A DNA stretch of 64,000 nt from Blastomussa wellsi (Eukaryota > Cnidaria > Anthozoa > Scleractinia > Plerogyridae). The position numbers and the translations under genes were made by a program. The stretch is from contig OX393566.1 in the NCBI GenBank assembly GCA_947652115.1, forward strand, positions 21,255,818 to 21,319,817, given 5' to 3'. Within the stretch, counting starts at the first letter, position 1, and every line of letters begins with the position of its first letter. Under the pieces are notes generated by a model, which was given only the letters and a program-made list of their open reading frames with translations, was not told the origin of the DNA and did not search any database. This document shows positions 25,073 through 61,310 of this stretch, in pieces.

Positions 25073-28000
25073 GATAGAAATATTCCAGTAAACCATGAAA
25101 AGTGTGTTGAGGTTAGTAATCTGATACGAGCTTGTCGTCGGTCAAATGTCCGTGTGAGGTGCAGGAATAGGGATAGGGAACCATCTAGAGTGGCACTTAA
25201 ACGGGTGATCAAATCACTTAAATCGAGAAAATCGAGACTGAAAACCAAGCGTTCTATTAGAAAATCTATACCTGTTTCATCTGTTTTGTACAACATAGCT
25301 TCTAACTATAAACAATGGAGTCTCACCTTTGATAAGAAACAAAACAGCTTCTTTAGTAATTATTTTGAGAGAGGTCTCATTCAAACAATGGAATATAATG
25401 CATCAAAAAGAAATATATTGCTCAGTGGAGATGTTGAGTTGAATCCTGGTCCAACAACTCCACAAATAATTTGTACAGAAAGTCGCAATTCTGTGTTTAA
25501 CTGCAGATTACGTAGACATGGACTAAGAGCACTAGAGGTTGGAGGAATGGGTAATTGCTTGTTTAGAGCCATAGCACATCAATTATATCATGATGCAAAT
25601 CGACATTTAGAAATCAGAAGGGCTGGTATTCAGTATTTGCAAAACAATCCTGAGCGATTTATAGAAAGTGCAGTTCTAGATAACACATCTTGGTCGCAAT
25701 ATTTATGTAATATGTCTATGGAAGGAACTTGGGGTGATCACATTATTATGCAGGCAATAGCAGAAGCTATGAACTTGAGAATTCATGTTATAGAGTCAAG
25801 TGAAAACTTTGCTGAGTTAACACTGGTTCAAGCGCTAGATTTGTCAGAGACAACAAGGTCTATATATATAGGACACATTGGAGAGATGCACTATGTCTCA
25901 ACAATAGAACTGTTAACTGAAAGTAACTTGCCTGAAAAAGTAAAAAGAAATTTGTTTGAAAATTCTTCTGAAACTGCCTATGCTCGTAAAAGAAAACACA
26001 CTTCTACTGTGACAGAAAACCAAATCAACTCAAGTTCTAAAGATGAAAGGAATTCTGCTTTAAATACAGTGTCAAATGAAGACACAAATGCCAGCAATAA
26101 GAATAAAAAAACAAAAAGTGCATATTTAAAGAGGAAATACAGAGAAGCCAATGCATCCCCAGAGCAGAAATCAAAACGTAATCAGTACCAAAAAGCTTAT
26201 AGAGGAAAAATATCATCACCTGAACAAAAGGCAAAACATAATCAACGTCAAAAAAACTATAGGTCTAGAATGACATCTGAACAAAAGGCAAAATGCAATG
26301 AAAAACATAGGGAATATAAATCAAAAAAGAAACTTGTTTCTATTGAGTCAGCTATCTCAAAGTTCCAGGACATGGCTGCAGAAGGTCCTGTTTATACTTG
26401 TTTTTGTTGTGACCAGCTTTGGTATAGGCAGAGTGTTCTAAAAGCAGAAAACCTGAAAGATATAAATCCTGTTATTCATGAATATTTTGACCAAAGGAGA
26501 AACTCAGGTAATGCTGAATGGGTTTGCAAAACATGTCAAAGCCATTTAGTGAAAAGTAAAATTCCACCCTGTTCTGTCGTTAATGGTTTGGCATTTCCAG
26601 AAAAACCAAACTTTTTTGATTTGAATGAATTAGAATGTAGAATACTAGCCCCAAGAATTGCTTTTCAAAAGTTGATGCAAGCACCTAGAGGAAAACAACT
26701 AAAAATACATGGAAATATTGTGAATGTTCCTGCTGATGTAGCAAGTACAGTCACTATGTTGCCACGGTTACTAAGTGAGACTGCTACAATAAAAGTAAAT
26801 TTAAAAAGAAAGCTTCAATATAAGAGTTCTGCATTGTCATTAAATGTAAGACCTCATAAAGTAATGCAAGCAGCAGATTGGCTGATCAGAAATAGCAGTC
26901 TTTATAAAGATGAAGGCATTGTTTTGAATCCGCAATGGACCAATCAGTATGACAAAGAAATTGAACAACAACATAATATGAATGGCCTTTATAGTGAACA
27001 ATCTGCAGAAAGTGCCGAGAACAGTAATAGTCACTCTGAAATAAACACAATAGATGATAGAGATAATGAAAGCGAAAATGAAGATGATGTACCTGCAGGT
27101 GTTACTGATACTATGTTAACAGGCACTGACTTTTTAGAAGATAATGAGCGCCAGCATATATTCAACATTGCACCAGCAGAAGGCAATATACCCTTAAGTA
27201 TATTCAGGGATAAATATTCAGAGGAGTTAGCATATCCTGGAATATTCCTTGGGCAACCCCGGTCTCTATGCAAGCACATTCACTATAGTGATATATGTAA
27301 ATCTGAACTAAGAAGGTCAGACAGAAGAGCAGCTATGTGTGTAGAGAATATTTTCTTTAAAGCAAAAAAGTTGCAAATGAAAATACTTCTTAGTAAATCA
27401 ACCATTGCACTTAGAAAATGCAAGGGAAACAACAGAAATCTTAATGCACGCCAATTAAAACAGATGGGTGCACTAGATCGATTAATTCGCTTTGATGAAG
27501 GATTTAAGTTTCTTACAGCATTGCGTGGTTCACCTCCATACTTTGAGAAAGCAAAAAAAGATCTGTTTGCCATGATAAGACAACTTGGACCTGCAACACT
27601 ATTTTGCAGTTTCTCATCAGCAGAAACACAGTGGACTCACCTTCTTAAAATTCTTGGCAATCTTGTGGATCACAAAGATTATTCTGATAATGAAATTAGC
27701 AATCTTAACTGGGAGGAGAGATGTAGATTGATTCAAAGTGATCCTGTTACCTGTGCCAGACATTTTGATTACCAAGTCAATAAATTCTTAAGTAGTTTTC
27801 TTTTGAGTTCTGCAGAGCCACTAGGGAAAATATCAGATTGGTTTTACAGGGTAGAATATCAGCAACGTGGTTCACCACATATACATATGCTAATCTGGGT
27901 GGAGAGTGCACCAAAATTCCAGGAGCAAAGTGACAAAGAAGTGATTGAATTTATTGATAAGATAGTAACCTGCTGCAAACCTACTGACAATCCTGAACTA

Positions 28001-31000: not shown

Positions 31001-31537
31001 TTCCAAATGTCTGAAAGTGACACCATGTATGAACTTGGAGAATACACCCTCTTTAGAAATGACGCTATTTCACAACACAATGAAAGACCATATGGTGGAA
31101 CTGCAGTGTATACTCGCATTGATTATTATCCGGCGTATCCATACTGCTACAATCAAAATGGCATAGAGATAACAGTTTTGAGGTTTATGGTAATTCCTCA
31201 TATCATAGTAATAGCTATTTATCGCTCTCCATCAATTCCTATTAGACAACTTTGTGCAGCTATAAGAGAACTGTTGGCATTGTCAACAGCAACTTTAAAA
31301 GTTTTTATTGGAGATTTTAATGTTAACTGGTTAAATATAACAGAAAGGTCAACATTATATAATCTCTTTATTACAGAGAATCACTATAGGCAACTAATGT
31401 CCTCCTACACAACAGATAATAAAACCTGTATTGACCATATCTATACTAATATCGATGAAGATAAAGTAAAGAGCAATATTTGGGAGACATATTTTTCTGA
31501 CCATAAAGCAATTTATGCACTGATTAACGCATTTTAG
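25073..31537 (+). CDS. Helentron polyprotein: 2A-like, OTU, Rep, helicase, endonuclease
   Basis: The frame is open from the gap edge, so the N-terminus is unknown; numbering is from codon 25154. Domains in order: a basic region; a 2A-like GDVELNPGP (92-100); an OTU fold (about 125-252) with Cys135 and His246, but GMGNC where an Asp-containing motif is usual; basic repeats; a CxxC zinc-type region (YTCFCCDQ...WVCKTC); a Rep domain with HUH GSPHIHMLIW (His909, His911) and tyrosines YIVDY (1091, 1095); a PIF1-type helicase with GGAGVGKS (1447-1454), FIDEISMVG and HRSQGDT; and an APE-like endonuclease (about 1913-2127) with SETR, GDFNVNW and SDHKAIYA. This set is known for Helentrons. No stop interrupts 2,127 codons, so the copy is young and possibly active. 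Confidence 0.92.
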   Translation, partial: DRNIPVNHEKCVEVSNLIRACRRSNVRVRCRNRDREPSRVALKRVIKSLKSRKSRLKTKRSIRKSIPVSSVLYNIASNYKQWSLTFDKKQNSFFSNYFERGLIQTMEYNASKRNILLSGDVELNPGPTTPQIICTESRNSVFNCRLRRHGLRALEVGGMGNCLFRAIAHQLYHDANRHLEIRRAGIQYLQNNPERFIESAVLDNTSWSQYLCNMSMEGTWGDHIIMQAIAEAMNLRIHVIESSENFAELTLVQALDLSETTRSIYIGHIGEMHYVSTIELLTESNLPEKVKRNLFENSSETAYARKRKHTSTVTENQINSSSKDERNSALNTVSNEDTNASNKNKKTKSAYLKRKYREANASPEQKSKRNQYQKAYRGKISSPEQKAKHNQRQKNYRSRMTSEQKAKCNEKHREYKSKKKLVSIESAISKFQDMAAEGPVYTCFCCDQLWYRQSVLKAENLKDINPVIHEYFDQRRNSGNAEWVCKTCQSHLVKSKIPPCSVVNGLAFPEKPNFFDLNELECRILAPRIAFQKLMQAPRGKQLKIHGNIVNVPADVASTVTMLPRLLSETATIKVNLKRKLQYKSSALSLNVRPHKVMQAADWLIRNSSLYKDEGIVLNPQWTNQYDKEIEQQHNMNGLYSEQSAESAENSNSHSEINTIDDRDNESENEDDVPAGVTDTMLTGTDFLEDNERQHIFNIAPAEGNIPLSIFRDKYSEELAYPGIFLGQPRSLCKHIHYSDICKSELRRSDRRAAMCVENIFFKAKKLQMKILLSKSTIALRKCKGNNRNLNARQLKQMGALDRLIRFDEGFKFLTALRGSPPYFEKAKKDLFAMIRQLGPATLFCSFSSAETQWTHLLKILGNLVDHKDYSDNEISNLNWEERCRLIQSDPVTCARHFDYQVNKFLSSFLLSSAEPLGKISDWFYRVEYQQRGSPHIHMLIWVESAPKFQEQSDKEVIEFIDKIVTCCKPTDNPELLHLVNRQVHRHSHTCRKNTKSDCRFNYPQPPMRQTRILYPLDKDMQQSEIKRHKDTWKTIKFHLDEMKEGEEITFDKLLLDLNVTEENYLLAVRSSINAATVFLKRTPNELRVNNYNPACLQAWRANMDIQYVLDVYACAVYIVDYISKAQKGMSELLREACTEARKGNSTIKQQVRDIGSKFVNNVEISAQEAVYIVLQLPMRKSSRQVVFINTAPPDERVELLKPLNDIKEMDDDCEEIYTSGLLKRYSKRPTQLEDVTLADWVAWYDVTGKPYVKPSNDLDTDGLPLEKCIEHYENDDDDLNDEKATNISGRGKMKKRNKARIIRSVWFNKEADPEKHYRELLMLYTAWRNEETDLLGGFFCYQDRYKALSKLIKEQMKQYVTCNEDLNEIQQERNRLEESYDCIAPLTESIEQQDCNEGQQDLHPDFNENYNLSDDIGIPSVDSRSEPLILNELPDNEYRCMVQSLNKEQKEFFYHVLHLIKTSDEPFYSFLSGGAGVGKSHVTKALYQAALKFYNSRAGDNFAEIRVLMLAPTGKAAYIIKGNTIHSALAIPACQSLKTYKRLDSNRLNSLRTQLGGIKLVFIDEISMVGNTMFNVQIDNRLKDIKGSPLPFGGVSIIAIGDLFQLQPVMDDYIFNDLKTEYGVLAPNLWQELFNMFELKEIMRQRESKQFAELLNRLREGKQTNEDIRVLRQRMLQSNTSSYPMNAPHLFIQNAKVNEFNDRVHHAIQNVKYSIKAHDSVIGATSQDVRDKILKQIPQDPRKTKQLHGSLNIAVGERTEISLNTRIDDGMTNGAGNVIKLIQINQTNYPSGIIWVQFDHDDIGAKTRQENRRLYVSGIQPTWTPIKPVTTQFAVGRNRTVQVVRKQFPLRPAAAKTIHRSQGDTETKIVVNFETKRAIPHIHYVGLSRVTVIEGLYITDLCEDKITVSPAVENEMEHLRNEGKLKLSISPIYAAPESSIKLCFLNARSLHKHINDVRADMNYLSTDISVFSETRFQMSESDTMYELGEYTLFRNDAISQHNERPYGGTAVYTRIDYYPAYPYCYNQNGIEITVLRFMVIPHIIVIAIYRSPSIPIRQLCAAIRELLALSTATLKVFIGDFNVNWLNITERSTLYNLFITENHYRQLMSSYTTDNKTCIDHIYTNIDEDKVKSNIWETYFSDHKAIYALINAF
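25427..25453 (+). other. 2A-like ribosome-skipping motif
   Basis: The codons read LLSG-DVELNPGP, matching the DxExNPGP consensus at which ribosomes skip a peptide bond between Gly and Pro. It lies about 100 codons after the first visible residues and 30 codons before the OTU domain. It would release a short basic N-terminal product from the main polyprotein. Similar motifs are known in non-LTR retrotransposons of marine invertebrates. Confidence 0.85.
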
Positions 31538-44321: not shown

Positions 44322-46001
44322 TTAGTGTCTCTTTTCCACGACAAGCTGTTTCAAGGCTGCATAGTTCACCCTCTTGTACCCATCGTCGCCCGTCACTACC
44401 GCCCACGGGTACAAATTCTCCACCTCCTGAGCGATAACACCGTGCTCAATTCCCCTCTTTCCCAGTTCTTCGAAGGCCTTTTTGGACCACACCCAGCTGT
44501 ATCCTTGGAGACCAATCTCCTCGAACTCGGAATGCGGCATGGCTGTGATGTTTTCTTTCAGGCGCGAATCGCTGAAAACTGCAAACAGGGCCGCACCGCC
44601 AAGAACGGTCCTAACTATGTCTCTTCTCTCCCTTCTTCTTGATCGTTCAGCAGCTGCCGCGGCTTCTAAACTCATTCGCTCTTGCTCAGCTCTTTTAACG
44701 TTTTCTTCTTCAATTCTCCTTTGTTCTTCTGCCCTCTCTTTTGCCCGCCGTTCTTTTTCCAGCCTTTGTTGTCGCTCGAGGGCTTCCCGGCGCCGTTCTT
44801 CTTTCCGCTGTTCTTCTTTTCTCTCCTTTTCTGCTTTGAGTCTGCGCTCTTCCTTCAGACGTCTTTGCTTTTCTCTAACTTCTTCTTTCTGGGCAATAGC
44901 TTGAGATATCTTTCCACGAGTTTTCGTTCTTTCCGTCACCAGAGCGCACTTCTCCGCAAACCTATCCATAATTCCATTTTTAGAGTACTTGATCTCATCC
45001 AAGTCCTTTCTCAGAAACGGCTCGACGATTTCTTGGAAACTTCGGGCACACAAACTAGTTTCGAAGTTGGTATACTCGTCTGAAAACCCACTCCAAGAAT
45101 TCTGATTTATCGCGTCTTGAAGCTTCCTGGCGAGATCAGCAGTCATTCTTCCATCCATGTATGCTCCACCAACAGTCTTTTTAGCAGGGAAACGTTTAAA
45201 ATCCGCCGCAAGAGAAGATGCCACATTTGCATAATCATCCTGTGGAAAGTTTTCTAGATTGCTTAATCGTTTCGAATCTCCCACGAAAGGAATGTTTCTC
45301 ACCTCGATGCGATCGCGAGGAAAATGTCTCGAAATGGTTTGACCATAGTTGCCTGCGAGAATAAAATCTTGAACTTGTCCCTGTAGAGTTTTTTCCTGCG
45401 AAGGAGAAAGCGCGTCTCGTAGAACCACGATCAATTCCGGGAATGACCTCGTGCTATCAGCGCCCTGCTTCCAGATTTGTTCGCTTAAACGCGACACGCG
45501 GTACAAAAATTGGACGTTGTGATTCTGTACCCCTTCCGTGGCAAATAAGGCCAAGCCCGAAGATAAGAGGACCGTAAAGATGCTGAGTAAATCTGTTTTG
45601 TCGTTGTCACCCAGGTTCGTTCCTTCCGTGTCGATTAAAATTGTACTTCCGGCGCCGTTTGAGTCACGCAACACAGAGATCCACACACCAGAGGTACATG
45701 GCTCCACGGTGTCGCTCGTCTTAAACACTTTCTGGACTCTGGCATTTCTATTTCCATCGAGAAAGTATCTGACAAAGTTCAAGTTTGTGGACTTACCAAC
45801 GCGCGCGTCTCCAATCGCACCGATTATCCTCACTGGTGCTGCTAACGTTTCGATCTCGCGTACAGCCTCATCGCCGAGGATAAATTTCTTGCTTTGTTCG
45901 TCGTACTTCAAAAGTGGCTTGGCTGCTGGGTTATTGCTATAAGCTGTGCTCCAAAGAGTCGCGAATATCAGCTGAAGAACGGCAGCAAACTTCAATTTCA
46001 T
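44322..46001 (-). CDS. GB1-type large GTPase with S74 domain (canonical, pair A)
   Basis: Single exon, 559 residues. The frame opens further upstream, but the ATG at 46001 gives a typical signal peptide (MKLKFAAVLQLIFATLWS). GTPase motifs: P-loop GDARVGKST (64-72), switch Thr in EPCTSGVW (Thr103), DTEG (124-127) and the GBP-type RD (195-196) in place of TKxD. A Lys/Arg/Glu coiled coil spans about 355-460. After a short hydrophobic stretch, residues 477-559 form an S74 intramolecular-chaperone domain starting SDSRLKENIT, with Ser477/Lys482 at the spacing of the S74 Ser-Lys dyad and the downstream GVIAQEVENLYPW and VNYAAL blocks. In phage tail proteins and animal MYRF this domain trimerises and cuts itself before the Ser. 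Best relative here is 56413-58104. Confidence 0.9.
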   Translation of the reverse strand: MKLKFAAVLQLIFATLWSTAYSNNPAAKPLLKYDEQSKKFILGDEAVREIETLAAPVRIIGAIGDARVGKSTNLNFVRYFLDGNRNARVQKVFKTSDTVEPCTSGVWISVLRDSNGAGSTILIDTEGTNLGDNDKTDLLSIFTVLLSSGLALFATEGVQNHNVQFLYRVSRLSEQIWKQGADSTRSFPELIVVLRDALSPSQEKTLQGQVQDFILAGNYGQTISRHFPRDRIEVRNIPFVGDSKRLSNLENFPQDDYANVASSLAADFKRFPAKKTVGGAYMDGRMTADLARKLQDAINQNSWSGFSDEYTNFETSLCARSFQEIVEPFLRKDLDEIKYSKNGIMDRFAEKCALVTERTKTRGKISQAIAQKEEVREKQRRLKEERRLKAEKERKEEQRKEERRREALERQQRLEKERRAKERAEEQRRIEEENVKRAEQERMSLEAAAAAERSRRRERRDIVRTVLGGAALFAVFSDSRLKENITAMPHSEFEEIGLQGYSWVWSKKAFEELGKRGIEHGVIAQEVENLYPWAVVTGDDGYKRVNYAALKQLVVEKRH

Positions 46002-46797
46002 TCTGACAAAAACGCTAGGTCTCACAAGGTACAACCGGCCTGACTAACCGAGTCATATGTTTCGTCGGCTTTTATATCGTGTGCCCCAATCAGAACCCTT
46101 ATATGTATTTTGCCTTCGTGTCATGTTTTGCTTTCAATTTATCATGATTATAATTGTCTACTTCTGGGAAAACCCCACTTGTTGCCTTTCGCTTTTACTG
46201 CAGAAAGCCACAAATCGCAGAATCCTGGAAGTGAATCATTTCAAGGAAAAACTCCCGTCACAACACGAAGATGTGCGACTAATTAACCATGAGAAAAAGA
46301 AGAAAGATAACTGACTTTGTAAAAAGGTTAGTTACAGAATAATTTTTATTGAAAGACAAGCACGGAACATGCGGTAAAAATGGCTTCCTTTTGGTATCTA
46401 TTCTGGGCTGAACGAGTAAAGGGGTTTTCCCTTTCCCGGAAACCGCACTTCCGGTTTTTCGGTTGAAATTTGCTTTTCATGCCCTGTTTTTGGATCAGAA
46501 TAAAGAAAATACGTTTAACAAAAGAATTTGAACGAAAAATAATCAGTTCTTTTGACGTTAACAGTGCAAAATCAGCTACACAGCGATAATTTAATCAACA
46601 GAAAACAATTTAAATTTCCCTCTCACGTTCAACATGTTATAAATGTCATTCCGGGAAAAAAGCGAACTTATTTACCCCGACTATAAAACGAGCGGGAAAG
46701 TCCCTACTCGGTGACGTGGCAAAATTCAAAAACTATTTTCACACTACACGGGTTCTTATTTAAAGACCCTTTAGTTAGTTTCAAGATATACTGCAAA
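46002..46797. promoter_or_regulatory. Shared divergent promoter A with TATA boxes, ISRE-like and kappaB-like sites
   Basis: Minus-strand TATAAAAG at 46069-46076, about 70 bases before the first gene's ATG. Plus-strand TATAAAA at 46682-46688, 110 bases before the second gene's ATG. An IRF/ISRE core TTTCCCTTTC lies at 46426-46435 and overlaps GGGGTTTTCC (46421-46430), a match to the kappaB consensus GGGRNWYYCC. Further kappaB matches are GGAAAACCCC at 46167-46176 and GGAAAGTCCC at 46695-46704 (reverse GGGACTTTCC), the last just after the plus TATA box. CCAAT occurs at 46086-46090. Binding is inferred from consensus only. Confidence 0.6.
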
Positions 46798-48507
46798 ATG
46801 AACTGGCTGATCTATCACCTCCTTATAACAATCTTTTCCGTGATTTACTTTGCGTCGGATGCTCAAGGAAAGCCAGCCCGACTTCTCATCAAATACAACA
46901 GCACGCGAAAAACCTTCGAGTTGAATCGAGTTGCCCTGGAAGAGCTGTCGAAACTACAGCGACCGATAAGAGTTATATCTGTTGTTGGAGATTCCCGAAT
47001 CGGAAAATCAACCACACTGAACGTGATCAGTCACATCTGGGCAGGAGCGAATCAAACCTTCATGGAAGAAATTTTCAAGACAGGCGACACCATCGAACCT
47101 GTCACGCGTGACGTATGGTGTCACATCATTCAAGACGAGAAGGGAAGAAGCATTGTGTTACTTGATGTGGAAGGTAAGAGTTTAGGCGACGACGCTCTCA
47201 CCACTCATCTGAGTATGTTCACCGCGCTGGTTTCGTCCGGCTTAAACGTTTTTGTTCGCCAAGTGTTTCAGAATAGCAACTTGCACTTTCTGTATCACAT
47301 GTCACGCTTAAGTGATCTTGTCTTTCCAAACATAAGTTTGGAAAACTTTCCCAGCCTGCAAGTCGTTATCCGTGGCGCACTCGGAGATCCTGGAGGAAGG
47401 ACGATCGAGGATTTCACCAGAGATTCCATAGTGGAACCTTCCTTCCAGGAGTTCATGCAAGAGGAAAGAAAAACAATCGCCAAACACTTCTCAAGAAATC
47501 AAATCACAGTAAGTCAGATACCGCTAGTGAGTCGCGAACTGTTCAAAGATTTTTCCGAACTAAGCAACAGTCACTACTGGACTGAAATGAAGAAACTTGT
47601 TGGCAAATTCAAAGAATTTCCAATAAAAAAGACGTTGCATGGAAGTCCTATAGATGGCCAAGGGTTAGTTGAATTGGCAGTTAGGCTTGCGGAGACCATG
47701 AATGCAAACTCTTGGCCGGACTTTGCAAATGCTTACGACGCGTTGGAACGAAATATTTGCAAGAGAAGCTATGTGAAACTAATTGAACCGCTTTTTGAGT
47801 CATTGGAGATAGACGAGATTGAATCAAAGATGGAAAAAGCCCTGGGGGAGTTTAAGGTGGAGTGTGAGTTGGAGAGTGAGGTAGCAGCTGCTCGGGAAGA
47901 TCTGCGGCGCGTCATTAAAGAGAGGAGGAAAGCGGAGGAGCTGGAACAGAAGGCATTAGAGGCGGAGCGCGAGAGAAGAGCAGCCGAGAAGAAAAGCGAG
48001 GAGCAGGAAACTAAATTTAAACGTGAATTGTCGGTTAAAGATGCTCAAATCACAAAGGCAAAAAGAGAAAAGGAAGAAGCTGAGATGAAAGAGAAGAATT
48101 TTAGAAAACTTCACTTGGAACAACTGAAAACCATTGCTTTGCTACGACAAAAACTAAGTAGGAAAAGCAGTGGTTTCTTTGATTTTTTCGTCCCTGTTGT
48201 AGCTGGAGTTGGGGCAGCAATGCTGAGCGACAGAGACTTAAAGCAAAACATCACCACGCTGTCCCACTCTCCTTACAATGTAATTGGACTCGGCGGAGTG
48301 TGCTGGGAATGGAACGAGATCGCTGAGAAAACCTTTGGACTGACTGGGGAGGACTGTGGCGTGATTGCACAGGAAGTAAAGAAATTATACGCTTGCGCAG
48401 TTACCATGGAAACACACGGCTTCTTGATGGTGCGATATGACGTGTTACATAATGAGATAATTAACAATTGCAATTTATGCGGGAAGAACTGTGGCCTTGT
48501 GAAATGA
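46798..48507 (+). CDS. GB1-type GTPase with S74 domain (degenerate G4, pair A)
   Basis: Single exon, 569 residues from the ATG at 46798, which gives a clean signal sequence (MNWLIYHLLITIFSVIYF); the upstream in-frame codons precede the likely start of transcription. P-loop GDSRIGKST (64-72) and DVEG (123-126) are intact, but the G4 Arg-Asp is IRG (192-193), so guanine recognition may be weak. A coiled coil covers about 375-465, followed by a hydrophobic stretch and an S74 domain from Ser477 (SDRDLKQNIT; Lys482) to about 555, with GVIAQEVKKLYA and a Cys-rich end NCNLCGKNCG. Closest here to 54251-55852. It probably partners the product of the adjacent minus-strand gene. Confidence 0.88.
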   Translation: MNWLIYHLLITIFSVIYFASDAQGKPARLLIKYNSTRKTFELNRVALEELSKLQRPIRVISVVGDSRIGKSTTLNVISHIWAGANQTFMEEIFKTGDTIEPVTRDVWCHIIQDEKGRSIVLLDVEGKSLGDDALTTHLSMFTALVSSGLNVFVRQVFQNSNLHFLYHMSRLSDLVFPNISLENFPSLQVVIRGALGDPGGRTIEDFTRDSIVEPSFQEFMQEERKTIAKHFSRNQITVSQIPLVSRELFKDFSELSNSHYWTEMKKLVGKFKEFPIKKTLHGSPIDGQGLVELAVRLAETMNANSWPDFANAYDALERNICKRSYVKLIEPLFESLEIDEIESKMEKALGEFKVECELESEVAAAREDLRRVIKERRKAEELEQKALEAERERRAAEKKSEEQETKFKRELSVKDAQITKAKREKEEAEMKEKNFRKLHLEQLKTIALLRQKLSRKSSGFFDFFVPVVAGVGAAMLSDRDLKQNITTLSHSPYNVIGLGGVCWEWNEIAEKTFGLTGEDCGVIAQEVKKLYACAVTMETHGFLMVRYDVLHNEIINNCNLCGKNCGLVK

Positions 48508-49961
48508 AACTGTTTATTTTTCTTACTAGAACTTCAAAAGAGAGATTCTGAATTGACAACAAGAAATGCCTGAAGAAGTCGGGCCGTGCCCGACGAAATA
48601 TTTGACATATATATATTAGTTAATTCCAACTGTACTGTCAGCCTTTCTGTATTCAGACTATTCAGTTCTTGTAATAAGTTATATTTGCTGATCAGATCCA
48701 ACCAGCGGATCCGGTGCCTTTGTATCTTCATTTTAAGCTAAAACAACATAAACGGGAATTTGGAAGAATAAGCAAATTCCGGGCCTTGACAAGGCGCGTT
48801 TCAAGGACGTGTCCGGACATTAGATTTTCTATGCTGAGGAAAAAGTCCAAACCGGGAAAAATATGGTTCCTGACACGTGTTCGTCACGTCGTGTGTAACA
48901 AGAACGACACCTTCGGATTTGTCCATATTCTCAAAGAATTGATAAGAGACGACTGGGGACGAGTCAGGGTCTGTACCGTGTGATTTCCGGACCACGACAC
49001 GCACTTTTTTACGCAGTGACGTACCCTATACTGTCTATTGGTGGTTTTCACTGTCACACTATCAAAAACTAAATTCGAAACAATTCAACTACAGAAGCTT
49101 AGAATTTCAGCGAGAGTAGATGATAAATTAATAAAGCATTTCTCCATGTCTCAGGCATGTACGGTGTCCCGTTCGCGTGTTATTTGCCGAAATGTTCCAC
49201 GCAAATTTCATTTCAATTCAAAGGCGACAGACCACAATTTCAATGTTGGCTCCTGCAAAAAATATCTAATTGCCATAACCATTCATCAGTAGGATGCCTA
49301 AAATGCTTGTAAAGCTTGGCATGGAGACGCCATATTTGTGTCCTTCCAAGGGACACAAATATCCCTGGCCGCCGTGATGCTCGCAAAACCATCTGGAATT
49401 CAGTTGTGCAATAATAGCTAATACTTTTGGCTCATGAGCAATTATACTTACACATAAACACTACTTATTATATCTGAAATGTTTAAACATCTAAAAATCG
49501 AAAGGATAGGCTTTTTTTCTAAACAAAAAAGTTTTGTCATGGTTCTCACTGGCAGCTTGATGTCACATACGGCCGAGAACTCAAATATTCAAGATGCTCT
49601 GTTTTCGAAAAGAAGGGCTGAAAAATTGCGAAAGATATAATTTTTTAGTTAGCCTTACACCTAGTGGCAACGAAAATTTAGCAGGCCTAACGAATTTTAA
49701 TTTCAGAATTTTATGACGTCACATGAAATGATGAGGCGAAATCCGTATACAGTATCTGATCTAAACACGAGACAGTTCATATGCAAATTAAACCCGAGAC
49801 GCACTCGAGGGTTTGTATAACTTTCGAGAATACGCAAGAATCTAAAATGTCACCGTGTTTACAAACTCACCAACGAGTGACACGCGCAGTATTTCAATGA
49901 AAGATAAATGGAGTGCGATCATTTCATTTACGATTTCCAAGCTTTTTATGTCGTTCATGGC
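48508..49961. other. Intergenic, no gene recognised
   Basis: A small perfect hairpin 'atttgtgtcc-ttccaag-ggacacaaat' lies at about 49333-49360. Open frames at 48714 and 49038 have no support. Confidence 0.35.
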
Positions 49962-50319
49962 TAAGGGACTGGTCATAAAGTACAGGAGGGGGTGGGCCGG
50001 AAAAAAAGGGGGGGTGGGCCATCATTTTTGTGCACGTAAAAAGGGGTGGGTCAAGAAACATCATGCAATACATTGGGGGTGGGTTATGAACAATTATGCT
50101 TCAATTTTATTAGCTGCAAATATGTACAAATACACAATTTAACACTTAAATGGCAATAATATAGCGTGATAAATGACTTGGAATAAAACTGCTCATTATT
50201 ACACCTACTGGCTAAAGTGACAGCTAGCTGTTTTTACAAAGATTATGTCAACAAGGAATATTCATGTGAAAAAATAAACAAAATGAAAGCAACAACCTAT
50301 AAAACATTCCATGCAAGGT

Positions 50320-50841
50320 TTAGTCTGCATCACTGACATCATCTTCAGTGAAGTCATCCTCAGTATCTGTGTCACTGTCTGTTTCTAAATTAGGGTTTAA
50401 ACTGTTACAAACTTGAATAGCTTCTTTTGTGAACATCTTTTTTGCAAATAGTAATTTCAACCATTTGACATCCCTTTTCCCCATTTTTGATATGGCATCT
50501 TTATTTAGGAGATGAGATTCAACTATTTTATCTCCATATGAACATGAACTTGCAACAGCTAGAGAAAAAACTCTTTGACAACTTTTCTCTTTACGCTCAA
50601 TTCGGCGCTTTTTTGATTTGGATCTATTTTCTTTTTGCCTTCTTTTTTTGGATGCAGATCCTCCTTTGGCCACTGGGTACATCCTCTTGTTTTTCTCTTC
50701 AAGGGTTTGCATTTTTTTTAAGCTTTCCAGTATTTTTGTTTTGAGGCTTGTGAGAACCCCAAAACATTTCTCATTAAATTTATGGGAACATTCTTGGCCA
50801 GTTTTAAGTTTGCCAGCTTTTGTAAACGCACTTGCATCATC
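50320..50841 (-). CDS. Transposon-borne basic/acidic protein, terminal exon
   Basis: The minus frame has no ATG near its start, but CACTTGCAG at 50842-50850 is a good acceptor, so this is probably a last exon. It encodes about 173 residues (DDASAFTKAGKLK...) with a Lys/Arg-rich nuclear-type segment (KKRRQKENRSKSKKRRIERK) and an acidic end (DSDTDTEDDFTEDDVSDAD). No DDE catalytic domain or known fold is recognisable. A bZIP-like heptad stretch (LKTKILESLKKMQTLEEKNK) precedes the basic part. Confidence 0.55.
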   Translation of the reverse strand, partial: DDASAFTKAGKLKTGQECSHKFNEKCFGVLTSLKTKILESLKKMQTLEEKNKRMYPVAKGGSASKKRRQKENRSKSKKRRIERKEKSCQRVFSLAVASSCSYGDKIVESHLLNKDAISKMGKRDVKWLKLLFAKKMFTKEAIQVCNSLNPNLETDSDTDTEDDFTEDDVSDAD

Positions 50842-50850
50842 CTGCAAGTG

Positions 50851-52364
50851 AATCAATAATAGACCATTTGGAGCAAGATTTTACCGACATCACAGTCACC
50901 GGAGAACAGTTATGGGAAGTATACGGTGCTCTCCAAAGAAAGGTGGACCAGGTCCTAGAATGCATCAGCGAGTTGAAGTTGCCACCAGTCAAGACTGACA
51001 TCCTTAAGAATACAGATGCAGGGCCTGGTGTGGGAAGCAGTAATGTAGAAGTGAGATACAGAGATGTCGAGATGGCTAGAATCCTGAATTCTGATCGTGT
51101 GAATAGAATTCACAGAGCTAGAGATGACAGTGGCCAGAATGAGGCAGAGAGATCAAATGCATGTATTGGTGAAGCACTGGTTGATGATGGGGCCATGCAA
51201 TGGAAGTTCCATGACGCACTTGATGGACTGACTCAAGATGAAATTGCAGCACTCTCACTTGATGATATCAAGAAACGCGAGGAGCTGGCAATAGAACAAA
51301 ATGCGTGGACCGTTGCCCGGAATGTGGCTGAAAGAATCAATCACGAGCCAGGTCCAGCTGGAGATTACATGCAATCATTTCTGACCCCACACAAGAATGC
51401 ACAGTTTTTCTTCAACACAGAACAACTACGCCAGTTTTTTTCGGCACCAGATTCAAAGAAGAAAGACATACCAGGATCTGCATACTTTAAGAAAATAAAT
51501 ACGTTTATGGAAGAACATGTACAGGTGGGAGAGCTCTACTTGGCATATCTAAAAGGTGACTGCCAGAACACAAACAAAACCCTATGTGAGTTTTGTGCTA
51601 AATTTCCCTGTTCAGCCCCAGGCTTGGAAAGAGTTCCAAGGCCAATGCCAGATCAGAGAGCTCTACCAGAATTGTGTTACTTGCCCTTTGACAAGACCCC
51701 TACTGTTACTTCAAGTGGTTCTCAAAGGGATATAGATGATTATCAGCCAAGAGCGCAAATTAAAAAGAAATTTGAAGATGGGACACTTGCATTGGATGAC
51801 GCAGAGTCTATTGGAATTTTTTCAAAAAGATTTGCTGTGGAGGAAAGTCTAACAAGAAAGTACCTGGAACATCTTGAATACATACGATTGAAAAAAGAAA
51901 AGAGGTCTGAAGAAAGAAAGCGAAAAACACAAGAGGAAGTCATGAGAACCTATGATGACTTTGACTGGGTAGAGATGTTCCACAAGGGAACACTAGCAAA
52001 ACAAACTGTTCCTGCTCTTAATTTGTTCCTTGATAGGCATCATCTGGCCCATGGCAAGATGAAAAAAGCGGAAAAAGTAAATACAATCAATGCATGGTTA
52101 GCAAATTCAGAATACCACAAGATACAACAAAGTGGAATTCACGATGAAGATAACGAAGCTAAAGATGATGGTGATCCTGCTGAATCAATGGACAGTGATG
52201 TTTCTGATGATGAGGATGATGTAATTTTAGTTGAGGTTGGTGAGCCCAGTGACGACGATGGAAGTGACTCAGATAATGACGAGATATTACAGCCTCGTAA
52301 CTCCAGAACTGGAAGACCATGTACCACATATATGACCCGTCATTTCTATGGAGACTCCAATTGA
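50851..52364 (+). CDS. Transposon-borne protein of unknown function, about 500 residues
   Basis: A long open frame without an ATG until 51072 (EMARILNSD), so it is either a terminal exon or starts there (about 430 residues). It contains a Cys cluster LCEFCAKFPCSAPG (about 51586-51620), a coiled coil (YLEHLEYIRLKKEKRSEERK), a SAP-like helical segment (TVPALNLFLDRHHLAHGKMK, KAEKVNTINAWL) and an acidic tail. I recognise no transposase. The element may encode accessory proteins only, or an undescribed transposition protein. Confidence 0.6.
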
Positions 52365-52748
52365 TGCCACAAAAATCAAGGTTAATGGTATTTTATCTGG
52401 AAAGAGGGGGGTGGGTCAGTTATTTTTATGTCAGGATTAAAAGGGTGGGCTACATTTTTTGTGTTAACTAGGAAGGGTGGGTCACTAAAACTTTGTCTAC
52501 TAGAAAATCAATTTTTCCGGCCCACCCCCTCCTGTACTTTATGACCAGTCCCTAATCATGAACCATTTGCTAAATTGTAACTCACTACTATTTACATAGT
52601 TAAACAACAGGATTATCGTTACAGGGACACGTATAATCTAGACATAAACAATCTGAACTAAAAAATCTTAACTATTTGACTAGCTATTTACAATAATATT
52701 AAAAGATTGAAAATTAGTAAGAGTTAAACTAGTTATAACAATCTGCGC

Positions 52749-52895
52749 AGGGGCGGATCCAGGATTTTTCTTAGGAGGGGTTGCACCACTAAGAATTGGT
52801 GACGTCAGCAGAATACCAGTTATGTTAGAAAGTCGCAGGTGATCTCATGGGGGGTGCACATCCCCTGCACCCCTCCTCCCTAGATTCGCCCCTAC
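52749..52895. mobile_element. Short MITE, GGGGCGGATCCAGG family
   Basis: Left end 'aggggcggatccaggattt', right end 'ctagattcgcccct', with interior 'gggttgcacc' and 'ggggtgcacatcccc' pairing. Same family as 14064-14680. Confidence 0.6.
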
Positions 52896-53342
52896 TACGA
52901 TACTTAATTGTTTGGATTAAAAATAGAGATTTAGATAATCAAAACAAACCCTGGTTTGATTGAATTAGTGCGACTGACAGCGCGCAGGGACAAAGTTCCT
53001 TTGAGTTTCATTATTGCAGCAACTTGGCACTTTATAACATCGACCTAGCGGAGGTTTTCTTGTGCGAGACTGCTTAAATTTTCATACATGAGGTATGAAT
53101 CACAGTTATCTTTTGTTTTATAAGGTAAAAACTCTGACCCAACGAAGTCTCAATACCGGGACCAGATGCCAACATTCCAATTTTTTTTTGTTACAAAACC
53201 CTAACCCTAATATAAAGGTTAACCGCAAGCAACCTAAAGCTGATTTAGTCTAACCATAGTGCTATGTAGGCTAATCGAAGTGCTTAGTAGGCTAACTGGA
53301 GCGCTATTTAGCCAGAGTGCTACTCAGGCTAACCGAGCACTA
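52896..53342. other. No gene recognised
   Basis: Short imperfect repeats 'gtgctatgtaggctaa', 'gtgcttagtaggctaac' and 'gcgctatttagcc' occur at about 53255-53330. Confidence 0.4.
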
Positions 53343-54142
53343 ACAATTAGCCATTTTCTAAATGAGCAGGGGACTGGGTACAAATATTTAAACTTGATTG
53401 AAACGAAAAATTGAACCTGGCATGTAGAAAAAACAAATTGGCTGAAACGCAAATGTATAGTACACTTTTGAAAATTTGAAATTTAAGAAAGCTTTGTATG
53501 ATTTGGAGGGACAGGACATACAAAGCTCTCTTAAATTAAATACCGTATTTATTCGATTAAGCGCCCTGGGCGCTTATTTAATTTTTGGACCTTCAGGGTG
53601 GGCGCTTATTCGAGGTGGGCGCTTATTCGAGGCTGGGCGCTTATTAAGTTTTCACCATTTCAGTTGAAACTCTGAGAAAAATTCCAAAATTCTCATAGAT
53701 TTTTCAGACAATGAAATTATAGATTGTGAGCCATTAAAGAAATACCGTAATAATCAATACCCGGTTTTCCTTTTGTACACTTTATTTACCGTACTTATGT
53801 TTTGGGAGATGGGAGGGGGGGGGGCGCTTATCCGAGGTTGGGCGCTCAAAATTATTTTTTTGGGGGGTGGGGTGGGCGCTTATTCGAGGCTGGGCGCTTA
53901 TTAACTTTTCCTACCTAAAGGGTGGGTGCTTATTCGAGGCGGGTGCTTAATCGAATAAATACGGTATTTCAACTTTTCAAATGTGCACTGCATACCTGCT
54001 TTTTAGCCAACACTGCTGAAATTTAGTAAACTTGCATTATTTTGGATGACCTTTCACGTGCCAGGCTCAAGTTTTCGTTTCAATCGATTTTAAATATTTG
54101 TACCCAGTCCCCCGCTTGTTTGCAAAATGGCTAATTATTGTT
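53343..54142. mobile_element. Outer TIR element split by a nested MITE
   Basis: The arms 'ggggactgggtacaaatatt' and 'aatatttgtacccagtcccc' and their flanks ('ttagccatttt', 'aaaatggctaa') are inverted copies over about 100 bases. At 53543-53964 a second element is inserted. Confidence 0.8.
53543..53964. mobile_element. Nested TA-target MITE with GGGCGCTTATTCGAGG repeats
   Basis: The ends CCGTATTTATTCGATTAAGC and its inverted match are flanked by TA on both sides (53541-53542 and 53965-53966). GGGCGCTTATTCGAGG-type words recur at least six times inside, resembling the terminus. It is a relative of the elements at 7910 and 60715. Confidence 0.8.
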
Positions 54143-54250
54143 ATACTATGTGGTATAATTAATCACCAGGTGTCCACTTCCGGTAGCTCCATGCTATATT
54201 GTTGTAACCGTGTCGCAGCCTCTTGCCTTGGCGCCGAGTGGGTCTCAGTC

Positions 54251-55852
54251 TTAACGGCGTAGTGCTCTTATTTGAATCACCAATCCCATGACACTGCTGA
54301 AAAGGCCCACTACTTTCAACAGTGCCTCTGACAATTCCTGAATAGAATATTTCTTCTTTAGAGCATCGATAATCTGCTTTTGATCTTCCTTGAGCTTTTT
54401 GATTTCGTCAAAGATTTTGTCGTTGCAATGCGAATCTTTTATTTTTGTTTCTCTCTGGCTGTAAAGCAACTCTGCCCCGACAGGGATGTCTGCCTCCGGA
54501 GCTGATCCTCTCTCGATTTCTGCTTTTAAAAGTGACTCGCAAGTGTTTAACTTTCCCTTAAGATCCTGAGCTTTTTGTTCGGCTTCGTGGCGAGCTTTTG
54601 TTTCTTCCGCGATCTCTTTGCCTTTTTCTGCAAGTATTTGCTGAATTTCCTCTTCACTTTTACCTCTTTTCTCGACCATCTCCATTTCCTTGCCGTCATA
54701 TTCCGCAAGAATAATCTCCAAGTCTTCCAATGTCTTTTTCGCGCGAAAGATCTGCTGAAGCTTTTCTCTGGCAGCTTTTAATCCGTTCTCTAAACGACAC
54801 TCTTTTGCAAAGGCATCAAGACGGTCATTCTTCTCGTACTCGATCTGCTGTGATTTCAGTTTGAAAACCGGTCCAACAAACTTTGCTTCGCTTCTCTTAC
54901 AAATATTACTTTCAATGGTGTCATAAGTACTTGCAAAGTCTTGCAACCCATCTGCACTCATGGTTTCTATGAGTTGCTTAATGAGTTCCGCAAGTGCGAT
55001 ACCATCCACAGGACTTCCCCCGAGGGTTCTTTTTATTGGAGATTTCTTTAGCTCTGCTGCTAAAGTGTCCGCTGCTCTCATGTAGTCAAAGTCCTTAAAA
55101 ATGTCACGATCAGAAACGTGTGGAATTTGGCTCACAGCAATTTCATTGCTTGGGAAGTACTTTGCGATGATCTTTCTCTCCTCCACCATGCCTTTTTGTG
55201 AATAGTGTCCCGCAATGAAATCTCGAGTGTAGTCTTCAACAGATCGGCCACTTTGATCGCTTACTCCACTTCTTACGATAAATCGGAGTTTAGCAAAGTT
55301 GTCACGGCTAGAGTGCGGGAAAGCTAGTTCATTCAAACGCGTGAAGTGGAACAGAGATTGCAAGTTACTGTTTTGAATGTGCTCGCGAATCAAAATATTT
55401 GAACTAGACGAAATCATTGCCGTAAACATGTTAAGATAAGACACAGGGGTGTCATCACGTAGATCAGCAGCTTCCACGTCTAGAAAGATAATACTTCCTT
55501 CTGTATCTTGCGTGATGTACGCCCACACTCCACGCGTGACCAGCGCGAGATTGTCACCCGTCTGAAAAATTTCCTCCACGAACGAGGGATTCGTTCCATT
55601 CCAAACGTGAATGACCGCATTTAAAATAGTCGATTTGCCAATTCTTGGATCTCCGTGCATAGCTATTACTCGAATTGGCAACGGGAGTTTTGCTATGTCT
55701 TCCAGCAAGCTTCGATTCAAATCGTAAGGTTTGCCCGCTGCGTTAAATCTGAGGAGGGGTTGTGCTGGCTTTCCATGAGCAACATGACACAAAAACATGA
55801 CCCAAAGTATTCCATAAAGACCGATCAGAGTGACAATTAAGAACTTACTCAT
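54251..55852 (-). CDS. GB1-type pseudo-GTPase without S74, C-terminal hydrophobic helix (pair B)
   Basis: Single exon, 533 residues, with a signal sequence (MSKFLIVTLIGLYGILWVMF). The P-loop GDPRIGKST (67-75) is kept, but G3 is DVEA (125-128; Gly lost) and G4 is VRS (193-195; Asp lost), so GTP hydrolysis is doubtful. Alignment by eye puts it closest to 46798-48507 (shared HGKPA/QGKPA, DLNR/ELNR and RVIA/RVIS blocks). A coiled coil covers about 350-450. Instead of an S74 domain the end is LKEDQKQIIDALKKK and then a hydrophobic helix LLKVVGLFSSVMGLVIQI, a possible membrane anchor. It could be a decoy or scaffold subunit. Confidence 0.88.
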   Translation of the reverse strand: MSKFLIVTLIGLYGILWVMFLCHVAHGKPAQPLLRFNAAGKPYDLNRSLLEDIAKLPLPIRVIAMHGDPRIGKSTILNAVIHVWNGTNPSFVEEIFQTGDNLALVTRGVWAYITQDTEGSIIFLDVEAADLRDDTPVSYLNMFTAMISSSSNILIREHIQNSNLQSLFHFTRLNELAFPHSSRDNFAKLRFIVRSGVSDQSGRSVEDYTRDFIAGHYSQKGMVEERKIIAKYFPSNEIAVSQIPHVSDRDIFKDFDYMRAADTLAAELKKSPIKRTLGGSPVDGIALAELIKQLIETMSADGLQDFASTYDTIESNICKRSEAKFVGPVFKLKSQQIEYEKNDRLDAFAKECRLENGLKAAREKLQQIFRAKKTLEDLEIILAEYDGKEMEMVEKRGKSEEEIQQILAEKGKEIAEETKARHEAEQKAQDLKGKLNTCESLLKAEIERGSAPEADIPVGAELLYSQRETKIKDSHCNDKIFDEIKKLKEDQKQIIDALKKKYSIQELSEALLKVVGLFSSVMGLVIQIRALRR

Positions 55853-56412
55853 TCTTCTTGCCAGCCTCCTGCAAGACAGCTAACTCTAGCAAAGCTTATC
55901 AAGAAGGGATATGAAAGTGAAACTTGATTATCACTCATTGGGGTTTATCCCTTGGACCACTAGGGTCTGGACAGACAGGAAAAACCGGTTTTTTTTTTCA
56001 CACATGGCATAATAACAGCTTTCCAAGAAGATACACCAATCAGTCAAGCACTTAAGGAGCCAATAAGATTACAAGAGCGTATGTGTATATTTCTGAGCTC
56101 ATTCGAATTCCATTCTGTTCAACCCCCCTTCAACCTAAAATTAAAAGCACCAAACTTTCATAACTCGCCCCAGTTCCCAGCGCAATTCTGGAATGAGTCA
56201 TCCTTGAAATTTGAATGGGGGATCTTTGTTTACACCATAATTGGAAAGCGAAACCCGATAAGGGATTTTTCCCAAAAGTGTGTCGAGACCGAAAGTATTA
56301 AAATGCATTGCACGCATTGTAATCCGGAAATGGTGAATAACGAAAGTAAATCTTTAAACTACGTAGGTTCTGCTAAACAGAAAAGTTTGTCTTTCAAAAC
56401 TTCAAGCACAAC
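55853..56412. promoter_or_regulatory. Shared divergent promoter B with two ISRE-like sites
   Basis: AGTTTCACTTTCAT (minus strand, 55911-55924) matches the full vertebrate ISRE consensus AGTTTCNNTTTCNY and lies 60-70 bases before the minus gene's ATG. GAAAGCGAAA at 56244-56253 is a second GAAANNGAAA core, 160 bases before the plus gene's ATG. TATTAAAA at 56297-56304 is a possible TATA box for the plus gene. I found no kappaB consensus here. Function is inferred. Confidence 0.6.
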
Positions 56413-58104
56413 ATGTTGGTAGTCGGTTTTCTCGTTTTCAATCTTCTGAGAGTAGCTTGTCTTGAGCAACCGTCAGCTAAACCGCTTTTGGTGTACGATT
56501 ATCAAAGTGAGAAGTTCGTCCTCGAAGATAATGCTCTTCGCGAGCTCAAAGAAGTTCAAGGCCCACTGAGAATATTAAGCGCAATTGGGGACGCTCGCGT
56601 CGGCAAATCGACAAATTTGAACCTGATCAGGCATTTTCTGGATGAAAAGAGAGCTGGAATGGTTCAGAATGTGTTTAAAACGAGCGAAAACATCGAACCG
56701 TGTACTTCGGGTGTGTGGATGTACGTTTTGCGTGACACCACCGGCGCTGGTAACACTATTTTAATAGACACAGAGGGAACAAATATGGGAGACAACGAGA
56801 TCACCGATTTGTTGAGCATCTTCACCATTCTTATGTCCTCAGGTGTAGCGCTGTTTGCCAGGGAAAGAATCAGTAATCATGACATACAGTTTTTATATCG
56901 AGTGTCGCGTTTAAGCGAACACGTCTGGGAAAAAGATATGCCGAGCGTCGTCCCGTATCCGGAACTAATGGTAGTCATACGAGATGCGCTGTCGCCGTCG
57001 CCAGGGAAAACGCTACAAAGTGAAATTCGAGATATGATTCTGAATGACAACATCAGACTAGGAGAAACGATTAGGAGACATTTTCCTCGCGATCGAATCA
57101 TAGTCAGAAACATTCCGTTCGTTAGGGATTCAAAACGCTTGACTGATTTACACAACAAGTATGCAAATATTGCCTCCTCTCTCGCAGCGGATTTCAAAAG
57201 GTTTCCGTACAAGAAGACTGTTAGTGGAGGGCTGGTCCATGGCAAAATGATCGCCGATCTCGCCGTAAAACTCCAAGCGGCGATTAATCGGAACTCGTGG
57301 AGGGAATTTTCAAGTGCTTACGTCGCTCTCGAAACGAACTTATGCGACCGTCGATTCAAAGAAATCGTCGAACCGTTACTGGAAAAAGACGTGGAAGAAA
57401 TCAAGCTCTCCATTGATCACGCAATGACACGGTTCACTGACAATTGCGCTCTAAAAGAAGAAATTAACTTTTCTCGTAATCGAGTAGCTAATGTTATCGC
57501 TTTAAAAGATGAAATAAGAGGAAAACAAAAGCGCTTGGAGGAAGAAAAACAGAGACGGCGGATGGAAGAGATGAAAGAGAAGAAAAGGGAAGAGGAAATT
57601 CAAAAGCAAGTGATCAGACTGCAGGAAGAGCGAAGAGCTAAAGAGAAAGCAGAAGAGCAAAGAAGAATTCTTGAAGAACAAGTAAGACGGGTCCAAGAAG
57701 AGCGAAGGAGATTAGAAGCCGAAGCATTTGCTACAAGGGAAAGAAAAAAGGGAAGAAGAGACATGGTTAAGGCAGTACTTGGCGGTGCAACCCTGTTTGC
57801 GGTTTTCAGCGATTCGCGCCTGAAAGAGAACATAACAGCTCTGCCCCATTCCGAGTTTGAACAAATTGGTCTCCAGGGCTACAGTTGGGTATGGTCCAGG
57901 AAAGCCGCGGAAGAACTGGGCAAGAGCGGAAAAGACTGCGGAGTTATTGCCCAGGAGGTGGAGAATATCTACCCGTGGACGGTGATGACGGGCGAGGATG
58001 GGTACAAGAGAGTGAACTATACAGCCCTTGAAGAACTTGCGTTGTCAAAGAAAAAAGACTCGGACTTTAGAGGGAGATCAGAACTACTTAACTCCAGAAC
58101 TTAG
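56413..58104 (+). CDS. GB1-type large GTPase with S74 domain (canonical, pair B)
   Basis: Single exon, 563 residues, signal sequence MLVVGFLVFNLLRVACL. P-loop GDARVGKST (59-67), switch Thr in EPCTSGVW, DTEG (119-122) and RD (190-191) are all intact. A long charged coiled coil (about 345-445) with repeated EEKQRR/EERRAKE runs leads to a short hydrophobic stretch and an S74 domain from Ser466 (SDSRLKENIT; Lys471), with GVIAQEVENIYPW and RVNYTALEEL. Very similar throughout to 44322-46001, including the residues around the cleavage site. It has a longer tail after the domain (KKKDSDFRGR). Confidence 0.9.
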   Translation: MLVVGFLVFNLLRVACLEQPSAKPLLVYDYQSEKFVLEDNALRELKEVQGPLRILSAIGDARVGKSTNLNLIRHFLDEKRAGMVQNVFKTSENIEPCTSGVWMYVLRDTTGAGNTILIDTEGTNMGDNEITDLLSIFTILMSSGVALFARERISNHDIQFLYRVSRLSEHVWEKDMPSVVPYPELMVVIRDALSPSPGKTLQSEIRDMILNDNIRLGETIRRHFPRDRIIVRNIPFVRDSKRLTDLHNKYANIASSLAADFKRFPYKKTVSGGLVHGKMIADLAVKLQAAINRNSWREFSSAYVALETNLCDRRFKEIVEPLLEKDVEEIKLSIDHAMTRFTDNCALKEEINFSRNRVANVIALKDEIRGKQKRLEEEKQRRRMEEMKEKKREEEIQKQVIRLQEERRAKEKAEEQRRILEEQVRRVQEERRRLEAEAFATRERKKGRRDMVKAVLGGATLFAVFSDSRLKENITALPHSEFEQIGLQGYSWVWSRKAAEELGKSGKDCGVIAQEVENIYPWTVMTGEDGYKRVNYTALEELALSKKKDSDFRGRSELLNSRT

Positions 58105-58996: not shown

Positions 58997-59298
58997 CAAT
59001 ATAATTTGGTTTTATCAACTGGGTTGATAATGTCAATTGGCCACCGTTAAGAGATTCAATTGCTGACGTTTCGAGCGTTAGCCCTTGGTCGGAGCGAATC
59101 GATTAGCTCCGACGAAGGGCTAACGCTCGAAACGTCAGCAATTGAATCTCTTTACGGTGGCCAATTGACATTATCAACCCAGTTGATAAAACTCGATTAG
59201 CTCCGACGAAGGGCTAACGCTCGAAACGTCAGCAATTGAATCTCTTTACGGTGGCCAATTGACATTATCAACCCAGTTGATAAAACCAAATTATATTA
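58997..59298. repeat. Inverted repeat with one arm duplicated in tandem
   Basis: The left arm (about 58999-59093) pairs with 59104-59189, and the latter is repeated almost exactly at 59191-59285. Each arm carries 'cgaagggctaacgctcgaaa' (or its complement) and 'gacattatcaacccagttg'. The motif resembles the hairpin at 24.6-24.9 kb and 37735. Confidence 0.85.
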
Positions 59299-60637: not shown

Positions 60638-61310
60638 AGGTAGTCTGCATACGAGCCTAGTGTCCCATCAGGCCGGAGCTTATCCCGGTTTCCTTAGCAT
60701 GAAGCGACAGAGTACCGTAATTATTCGAATAAACGCCTCCCAGCCTCCAATAAACGCCGCCCTCGAATAAACGCCGCAGGGGCAAGCAAAAATATCATTA
60801 CACGCCGCCCTCGAATAAACGCCGTCCTCAAATAAACGCCGCAATCTGAAAGTCTTACTTGTCTAGCCATTATATAAAAGACAGTGGACAGTTCAATTTT
60901 CATATATAATCGTATAAATTGAAGACATATAACTTTTATTCTTATTTTTTGGGGGTTGATTGTATTGGTTAAATTGACGTTTAAATGACACAAGAAATTC
61001 ACAGTTGTTGTTACAAGGTTTGCAATAAACGCCTCCCTCGAATAAACGCCGCATCTTAAGTGCCCAAAATATAATAAACGCCGCGGCGTTCATTCCAATA
61101 ATTACGGTATTTCTACTCCCCCTAGTCCATCCGTGCAGGGGTACCCCCAGCAGCAAATTCACCGGTTCCCATTTATACACCTAGGTGAAGAGAGGAACTG
61201 TGAGTAAAGTGTCTTGCCCAAGAACACAACACAGTGCCCCGGCCAGAGCTCAAACTCGGACCGTCAGATCAAGAGTCCAGCGCACTAACCATCAGGCCAC
61301 CACGACTCCC
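60638..61310 (-). repeat. SINE copy 3, split by a nested MITE
   Basis: Minus-strand SINE parts lie at 61108-61310 (head and body) and 60638-60714 (tail). The reading resumes exactly across the insertion, 'gagta|tttctac', with TA duplicated. The head has 'gatggttagtgcgctggact' and 'ccgagtttgagc'. Confidence 0.85.
60715..61107. mobile_element. Complete TA-target MITE with internal GGCGTTTATTCGAGG repeats
   Basis: Starts CCGTAATTATTCGAATAAAC and ends 'attccaataattacgg', with TA duplicated on both sides. It is the complete counterpart, in reverse orientation, of the truncated copy at 7910-8312. The central non-repeat part ('ttaaattgacgtttaaa', 'tggacagttcaatttt') is shared. Confidence 0.85.

Follow-up and report, generated by a model that had tools for sequence, protein, structure and literature searches.

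S74-type C-terminal domains fused to GBP-like GTPases with signal-like N-termini in the stony coral Blastomussa wellsi

To our knowledge, known GBPs lack a signal peptide, and the S74 domain as a self-cutter is known in cellular eukaryotes mainly from MYRF and its kin. A CaaX prenylation end is a feature of some vertebrate GBPs. In this study we analysed a 64,000-nucleotide window of the Blastomussa wellsi genome (contig OX393566.1), in which positions 44322-58104 hold four long single-frame GBP-like open reading frames (ORFs), A (-), B (+), C (-) and D (+); three of them, A, B and D, end in an S74 domain. A, B and D combine two known families in an unusual form, in which S74 is joined to a dynamin-superfamily GBP-type GTPase with a signal-like N-terminus. 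In MYRF (PMC8326128), a C-terminal triple coiled coil drives trimers, cleavage requires trimers, and the C-terminal helix spans N670-K705. MYRF differs in having a DNA-binding domain, whereas in A, B and D the S74 domain forms the very C-terminus behind a hydrophobic stretch and its C-terminal helix is short. Polinton-like viruses carry PF13884 at protein C-termini within eukaryotic genomes, fused to fibre and adhesion domains (PMC12220804); by description, they resemble our genes in the C-terminal PF13884 inside a eukaryotic genome and differ in the fusion partners. On the GTPase side, GBP1, GBP2, GBP5 and atlastins differ from A to D and from a fifth member, E, located elsewhere in the genome, since A-E have a signal-like N-terminus, no CaaX end (termini VVEKRH, NCGLVK, IRALRR, LLNSRT and SADLEE, respectively), S74 in three of five and degraded GTPase motifs in three of five. 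Human GBP1 has been reported as secreted (excerpt of PMC5571548). The genes and their S74 domains are as follows.

44322-46001 (-), gene A, 559 amino acids, within ORF 44322-46034 with the likely ATG at 46001: signal-like stretch, GBP GTPase (GDARVGKST, DTEG, RD), charged helix, hydrophobic stretch, S74
46798-48507 (+), gene B, 569 amino acids, within ORF 46711-48507 with the likely ATG at 46798: layout as in A, GTPase motifs degraded (DVEG, RG)
54251-55852 (-), gene C, 533 amino acids, ORF 54251-55852 with the likely ATG at 55852: signal-like stretch, degraded GBP GTPase (DVEA, RS), without S74
56413-58104 (+), gene D, 563 amino acids, ORF 56413-58104 with the likely ATG at 56413: signal-like stretch, intact GBP GTPase motifs, helix, hydrophobic stretch, S74
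44325-44573 (-), S74 of A, 83 residues starting at Ser477: PF13884, 36 bits
48226-48504 (+), S74 of B, 93 residues starting at Ser477: PF13884, 34.8 bits
57808-58101 (+), S74 of D, 98 residues starting at Ser466: PF13884, 43.1 bits, and a fold match

The C-terminal matches of A, B and D to PF13884 (Peptidase_S74) all exceed the curated Pfam cut-off of 22 bits, with genome-wide E-values of 1.2e-8 for D, 1.9e-7 for A and 3.1e-7 for B, while C gave no PF13884 match in the Pfam profile search. An earlier sequence-only reading of this DNA, which had assigned an S74 end to three of four GTPases and placed its Ser and Lys five residues apart, is thus borne out on both points: the dyad is S477/K482 in A, S477/K482 in B and S466/K471 in D, numbered from the likely ATG. 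The motifs that it had listed hold in part. The start reads SDSRLKENIT in A and D and SDRDLKQNIT in B, and GVIAQEV is common to all three; the proposed final block is clear in A (VNYAAL) and D (VNYTAL) and fits loosely in B (VRYDVL). In our 49-row S74 alignment the invariance of the motif is partly built in, most loci having been fetched by a pattern that contains it. Additionally, the structure model of D's S74 domain matches the MYRF and endosialidase chaperones (ICA fold). Profile, dyad and modelled fold agree, and A, B and D are fusions of a GBP-type GTPase with S74. Because the Ser-Lys dyad is intact, autoproteolysis of A, B and D is plausible; the C-terminal fragments would measure 9.5 kDa (A), 10.3 kDa (B) and 11.1 kDa (D) by calculation, at or slightly above the 9-10 kDa foreseen in the earlier reading.

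The GTPase parts were assessed in the same profile search. All of A-D lie above the curated PF02263 (GBP) cut-off of 21.1 bits, with 42, 39.8, 27.3 and 37 bits, in agreement with the four GBP-type GTPases originally proposed, and E reaches 32.4 bits. The P-loop is kept in five of five members, and the DTEG and RD motifs occur just in A and D; the corresponding residues are DVEG/RG in B and E and DVEA/RS in C. Judged by their sequences, A-E are a five-member family of single-frame GBP/atlastin-type GTPases. RecA rows in a profile scan were rejected as repeat artefacts, the best single stretch having an i-Evalue of 53 among the alignments shown. Two cysteines are invariant across all five paralogues (D residues 311 and 345 and their equivalents) and might pair as a disulphide, should these proteins be secreted.

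The ratio of nonsynonymous to synonymous divergence (dN/dS) between A and D is 0.18 overall and 0.20 in S74, both rough values since overall synonymous divergence (dS) is 1.49. By this measure the fusion is under purifying selection. Pseudogenes or chance as the origin of A to D are ruled out by the long intact frames, the A-D dN/dS well below 1 and the genome-wide significant matches. Between A and D, synonymous divergence drops from 1.75 in the GTPase part to 0.69 in S74, for which gene conversion may be responsible.

Beyond the sequence-only reading, the analysis brought out signal-like N-termini, a hydrophobic stretch before the Ser, paralogues that end in a tail instead of S74, and the pairing of the genes. 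All five proteins begin with a hydrophobic stretch, followed in A-D, the four examined for it, by an acceptable -3,-1 site. A second stretch stands directly before the S74 Ser of A, B and D, so that the predicted cut lies immediately behind it, between F and S in A and D and between L and S in B. These stretches, together with the C-terminal one of C, are listed with their Kyte-Doolittle means.

44574-44618 (-), hydrophobic stretch IVRTVLGGAALFAVF directly N-terminal of A's Ser: mean 1.98 over 15 residues
48181-48225 (+), hydrophobic stretch before B's Ser, ending VAGVGAAML: mean 1.84
57763-57807 (+), hydrophobic stretch MVKAVLGGATLFAVF before D's Ser: mean 1.85
54254-54337 (-), C-terminal hydrophobic stretch of C, residues 506-533, ELSEALLKVVGLFSSVMGLVIQIRALRR: best 15-residue mean 2.15

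C, which has no S74, ends LLKVVGLFSSVMGLVIQIRALRR, with its best window at 2.15, and E, also without S74, ends FERFLGTVFGTALGTYFFGNAQPLLGAGLQCSADLEE, which is Gly/Ala/Phe-rich and milder. No S74 remnant was found downstream of C or E. Mainly because these two paralogues end in hydrophobic or milder tails, we read the S74 domain as a removable cap, although the comparison of the termini is suggestive only. We infer the following course. A-E would probably enter the secretory pathway through a signal peptide; a GBP-S74 protein would oligomerise, and its Ser-Lys dyad would cut at the F-S (A, D) or L-S (B) bond; a piece of 9.5-11 kDa would be released, leaving the GTPase with a free hydrophobic C-terminal tail that could attach to a membrane or insert into it. 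The tail-ended form would be encoded directly by C and, less clearly, by E. The likeliest mechanism, in our judgement about an even call, is that a secreted-type GTPase exposes a hydrophobic tail when S74, its self-removing cap, cleaves itself off. If true, a GTPase that acts on membranes would be armed in a new way, through a cap that removes itself, and an animal would be using a viral assembly domain, perhaps in immunity.

Several observations weigh against the cap. The putative signal peptides are called from hydropathy and the -3,-1 rule, and it is doubtful that the secretory lumen supplies GTP. The stretch before the Ser is short, about 15 residues, with K or R inside it in A and D. E has no 15-residue window of at least 1.4 near its end, and C's tail gives no homology alignment with the tails of the other members. 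The C-terminal helix of A and D is short compared with the trimer-driving helix that MYRF cleavage needs. Finally, A, B and D each carry an N-I-T glycosylation sequon beside the dyad, and glycosylation in the endoplasmic reticulum could block cleavage.

Among the alternatives, we regard it as rather unlikely that S74 cuts while the hydrophobic stretch only threads the cut site through the protease, with no membrane binding. In its favour, the MYRF cut site passes through a hole with an aromatic and hydrophobic lining (excerpt of PMC8326128). To see how common such a stretch is, we compared phage S74 domains on 148 motif rows from 164 loci. Two false motifs were removed, as were rows that had fewer than 25 residues ahead of the Ser or were open at a locus end, which left 120 distinct rows; retrieval used the motif and queries containing upstream residues, possibly favouring hydrophobic ones. 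By length after the Ser, the rows fall into 63 compact S74s (at most 84 residues) and 57 long, tail-fibre-like ones. Mean hydropathy before the Ser is 0.96 in the compact class, with 37 of 63 at or above 1.0, versus 0.02 and none of 57 in the long class (Mann-Whitney P 9e-15). The compact class suits the threading explanation, being hydrophobic before the Ser as well. In contrast, the absence of such a stretch from all 57 tail-fibre S74s and the Pro before the Ser in MYRF (same excerpt) argue that threading does not generally need one, and C still ends in a hydrophobic stretch without any S74 to thread it.

All six proteins of the compact class that were scanned against PHROGs match a DNA-ejection family. 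Of the four named phages inspected, all have a gene for head closure or packaged-DNA stabilisation upstream, and three have one annotated for DNA transfer or injection downstream. Compact S74s behind hydrophobic stretches (L001-L004, L017, L028, L056 and others) often lie in DNA-ejection cassettes, which raises the separate question whether they cut themselves and thereby leave an ejection protein with a hydrophobic end. They resemble A, B and D in the hydrophobic residues before the Ser and in the short C-terminal end, and differ in having no GTPase. In PHROGs, A and D match best to phrog_6121 (virion structural protein) and B to phrog_4287 (DNA ejection protein), in each case from 10-15 residues ahead of the Ser onward; tail-fibre families score only a little lower. 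A first, smaller class-profile test of the S74 core was ambiguous, and a first unrooted tree (9 compact, 54 long and 3 GBP rows) held the three groups apart, with nearness not readable. In the larger profile test, the core scores of A, B and D differed between the compact and tail-fibre classes by only -3.8 to +3.9 bits, against at least 28.8 bits for held-out true members; membership of the core in the phage ejection class was rejected on this equal distance. When 15 upstream residues are included, the class-score difference favours the compact class in A (+12.9 bits) and D (+7.7 bits) but not in B (+0.2). By these sequence comparisons the GBP S74s form a lineage of their own, sharing layout, not demonstrated descent, with the ejection type.

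Unlikely, in our estimation, is the explanation closest to the original proposal, in which the long helix builds a trimeric coiled coil that S74 first chaperones and then leaves by cutting itself off, the hydrophobic segment being no more than packed stalk. Phage and MYRF S74 domains do act on trimers (excerpt of PMC8326128). D's helix shows a moderate heptad signal (0.38 in a/d versus 0.15), and the full-length model of D, in which only helices are usable (predicted local distance difference test, pLDDT, 49), predicts a long confident helix at 348-438. A's long helix, on the other side, is 62% E/K/R and 12% ILVMFYW with little heptad pattern, and the C-terminal helix is short: 12 residues follow the V-x-Y motif in A and 27 in D, where phage S74s have a median of 7 (compact, 63 rows) or 26 (long, 40 of 57 rows with the motif found). 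Support for coiled-coil trimers is weak. GBPs and atlastins, in addition, form dimers or larger GTP-driven assemblies.

Such assemblies enter an extension of the cap reading that we hold to be doubtful: an S74-capped lumenal or secreted immune GTPase would activate itself when GTP-driven oligomers, not a coiled coil, trigger the cut; the freed tails would attack or fuse membranes, and the degraded head-to-head partner (B, C) would serve as a regulatory subunit. Slightly more doubtful still is that S74 is retained uncut as a fixed C-terminal oligomerisation or folding module on the GBP, which the shortness here of the helix that drives MYRF trimers, and hence cleavage, and the potentially blocking N-I-T sequon would allow, but which sits poorly with a Ser and Lys kept in three of three at an identity of just 34-37% between B and either A or D and, less clearly, with compact phage S74s that likewise lack a long C-terminal helix.

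We next consider the distribution of both domains. In the 367.8-Mb genome (124 contigs) there are four PF13884 matches, namely D, A, B and one exon on contig C10; the latter we call MYRF on the strength of its 51-bit match to 7dc3 (E 6.7e-13). Derivation of the GBP S74s from MYRF is not supported: they score 25-30 bits in Blast to this exon, which is partial, versus 46-56 bits for the best phage rows. Pfam matches above cut-off in A, B and D comprise only GBP and S74, with no MYRF DNA-binding domain. PF02263 has at least 22 matches in the genome; among those listed, five (A-E) lie in open frames of 542-606 amino acids, and the other 17 in shorter frames of 66-306 amino acids, as expected for split exons. 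E, of 504 amino acids, is on contig C23 (L212, 1874-3388) and has a signal-like start. The one classical GBP first exon that was read, on contig C1, has no signal-like stretch at its start. In prokaryotic or viral collections, homologues of the GBP part were found neither in phages (429-residue piece of D), plasmids (B) or genome contigs (D) nor in viral contigs (alignment). An S74 alignment scan of the genome contigs returned 21 loci. Among the papers listed by searches of the open PubMed Central (PMC) literature, none reported a GBP-S74 fusion; domain databases may well list the architecture.

The genes are arranged as two head-to-head pairs, A/B and C/D, each consisting of one intact and one degraded GTPase, which suggests that the two act as partners. 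Ten pairwise comparisons place A nearest to D (62%) and B nearest to C (42%), and at the DNA level A and D are inverted repeats of 70-78%; on these grounds a single divergent pair probably gave rise to both through an inverted copy. The two gaps between the genes contain NF-kB-like (GGGRNTTTCC) and IRF-like (GAAANNGAAA) sites.

46002-46797, A-B intergenic region between head-to-head genes: three GGGRNTTTCC sites and one GAAANNGAAA site
55853-56412, C-D intergenic region between head-to-head genes: two GAAANNGAAA sites

All three GGGRNTTTCC sites of the window fall in the 796-bp A-B gap. Three per 64 kb is not unusual (reached by 6 of 100 shuffles), but their clustering is, with a probability of 1.9e-6 under random placement. 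Upstream of E there are two IRF-like sites, one GAAACTGAAACT. Together, the A-B, C-D and E upstream regions hold five GAAANNGAAA sites in 2168 bp, versus 0.48 expected at the window rate (P 1.5e-4) or 0.67 when the rate is taken from six other genomic loci (P 7e-4); the patterns were picked after the fact, out of seven. Nematostella GBPs are among poly(I:C)-responsive genes (excerpts of PMC8476169 and PMC13319465). It is because of the NF-kB-like and IRF-like promoter sites and this response of cnidarian GBPs in general to a double-stranded RNA mimic that a role in immunity may be considered, and any such role we infer.

Between the two GBP pairs lies an unclassified DNA transposon at 49964-52553, with two perfect 42-bp inverted ends flanking ORFs 50320-50856 (-) and 50832-52364 (+), neither of which has a Pfam match above cut-off. 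The long ORF at 24866-31537, with OTU, DUF6570, Helitron_like_N and PIF1 domains, marks a Helitron-type element preceded directly by about 200 N, and the GDVELNPGP in its first part resembles a 2A peptide. A dispersed minisatellite with a 17-bp period and related units occurs at 8142-8290, 53597-53960 and 60744-60842. At 58998-59297, two identical 94-bp tandem copies adjoin a near-perfect inverted copy, either a repeat or an assembly feature.

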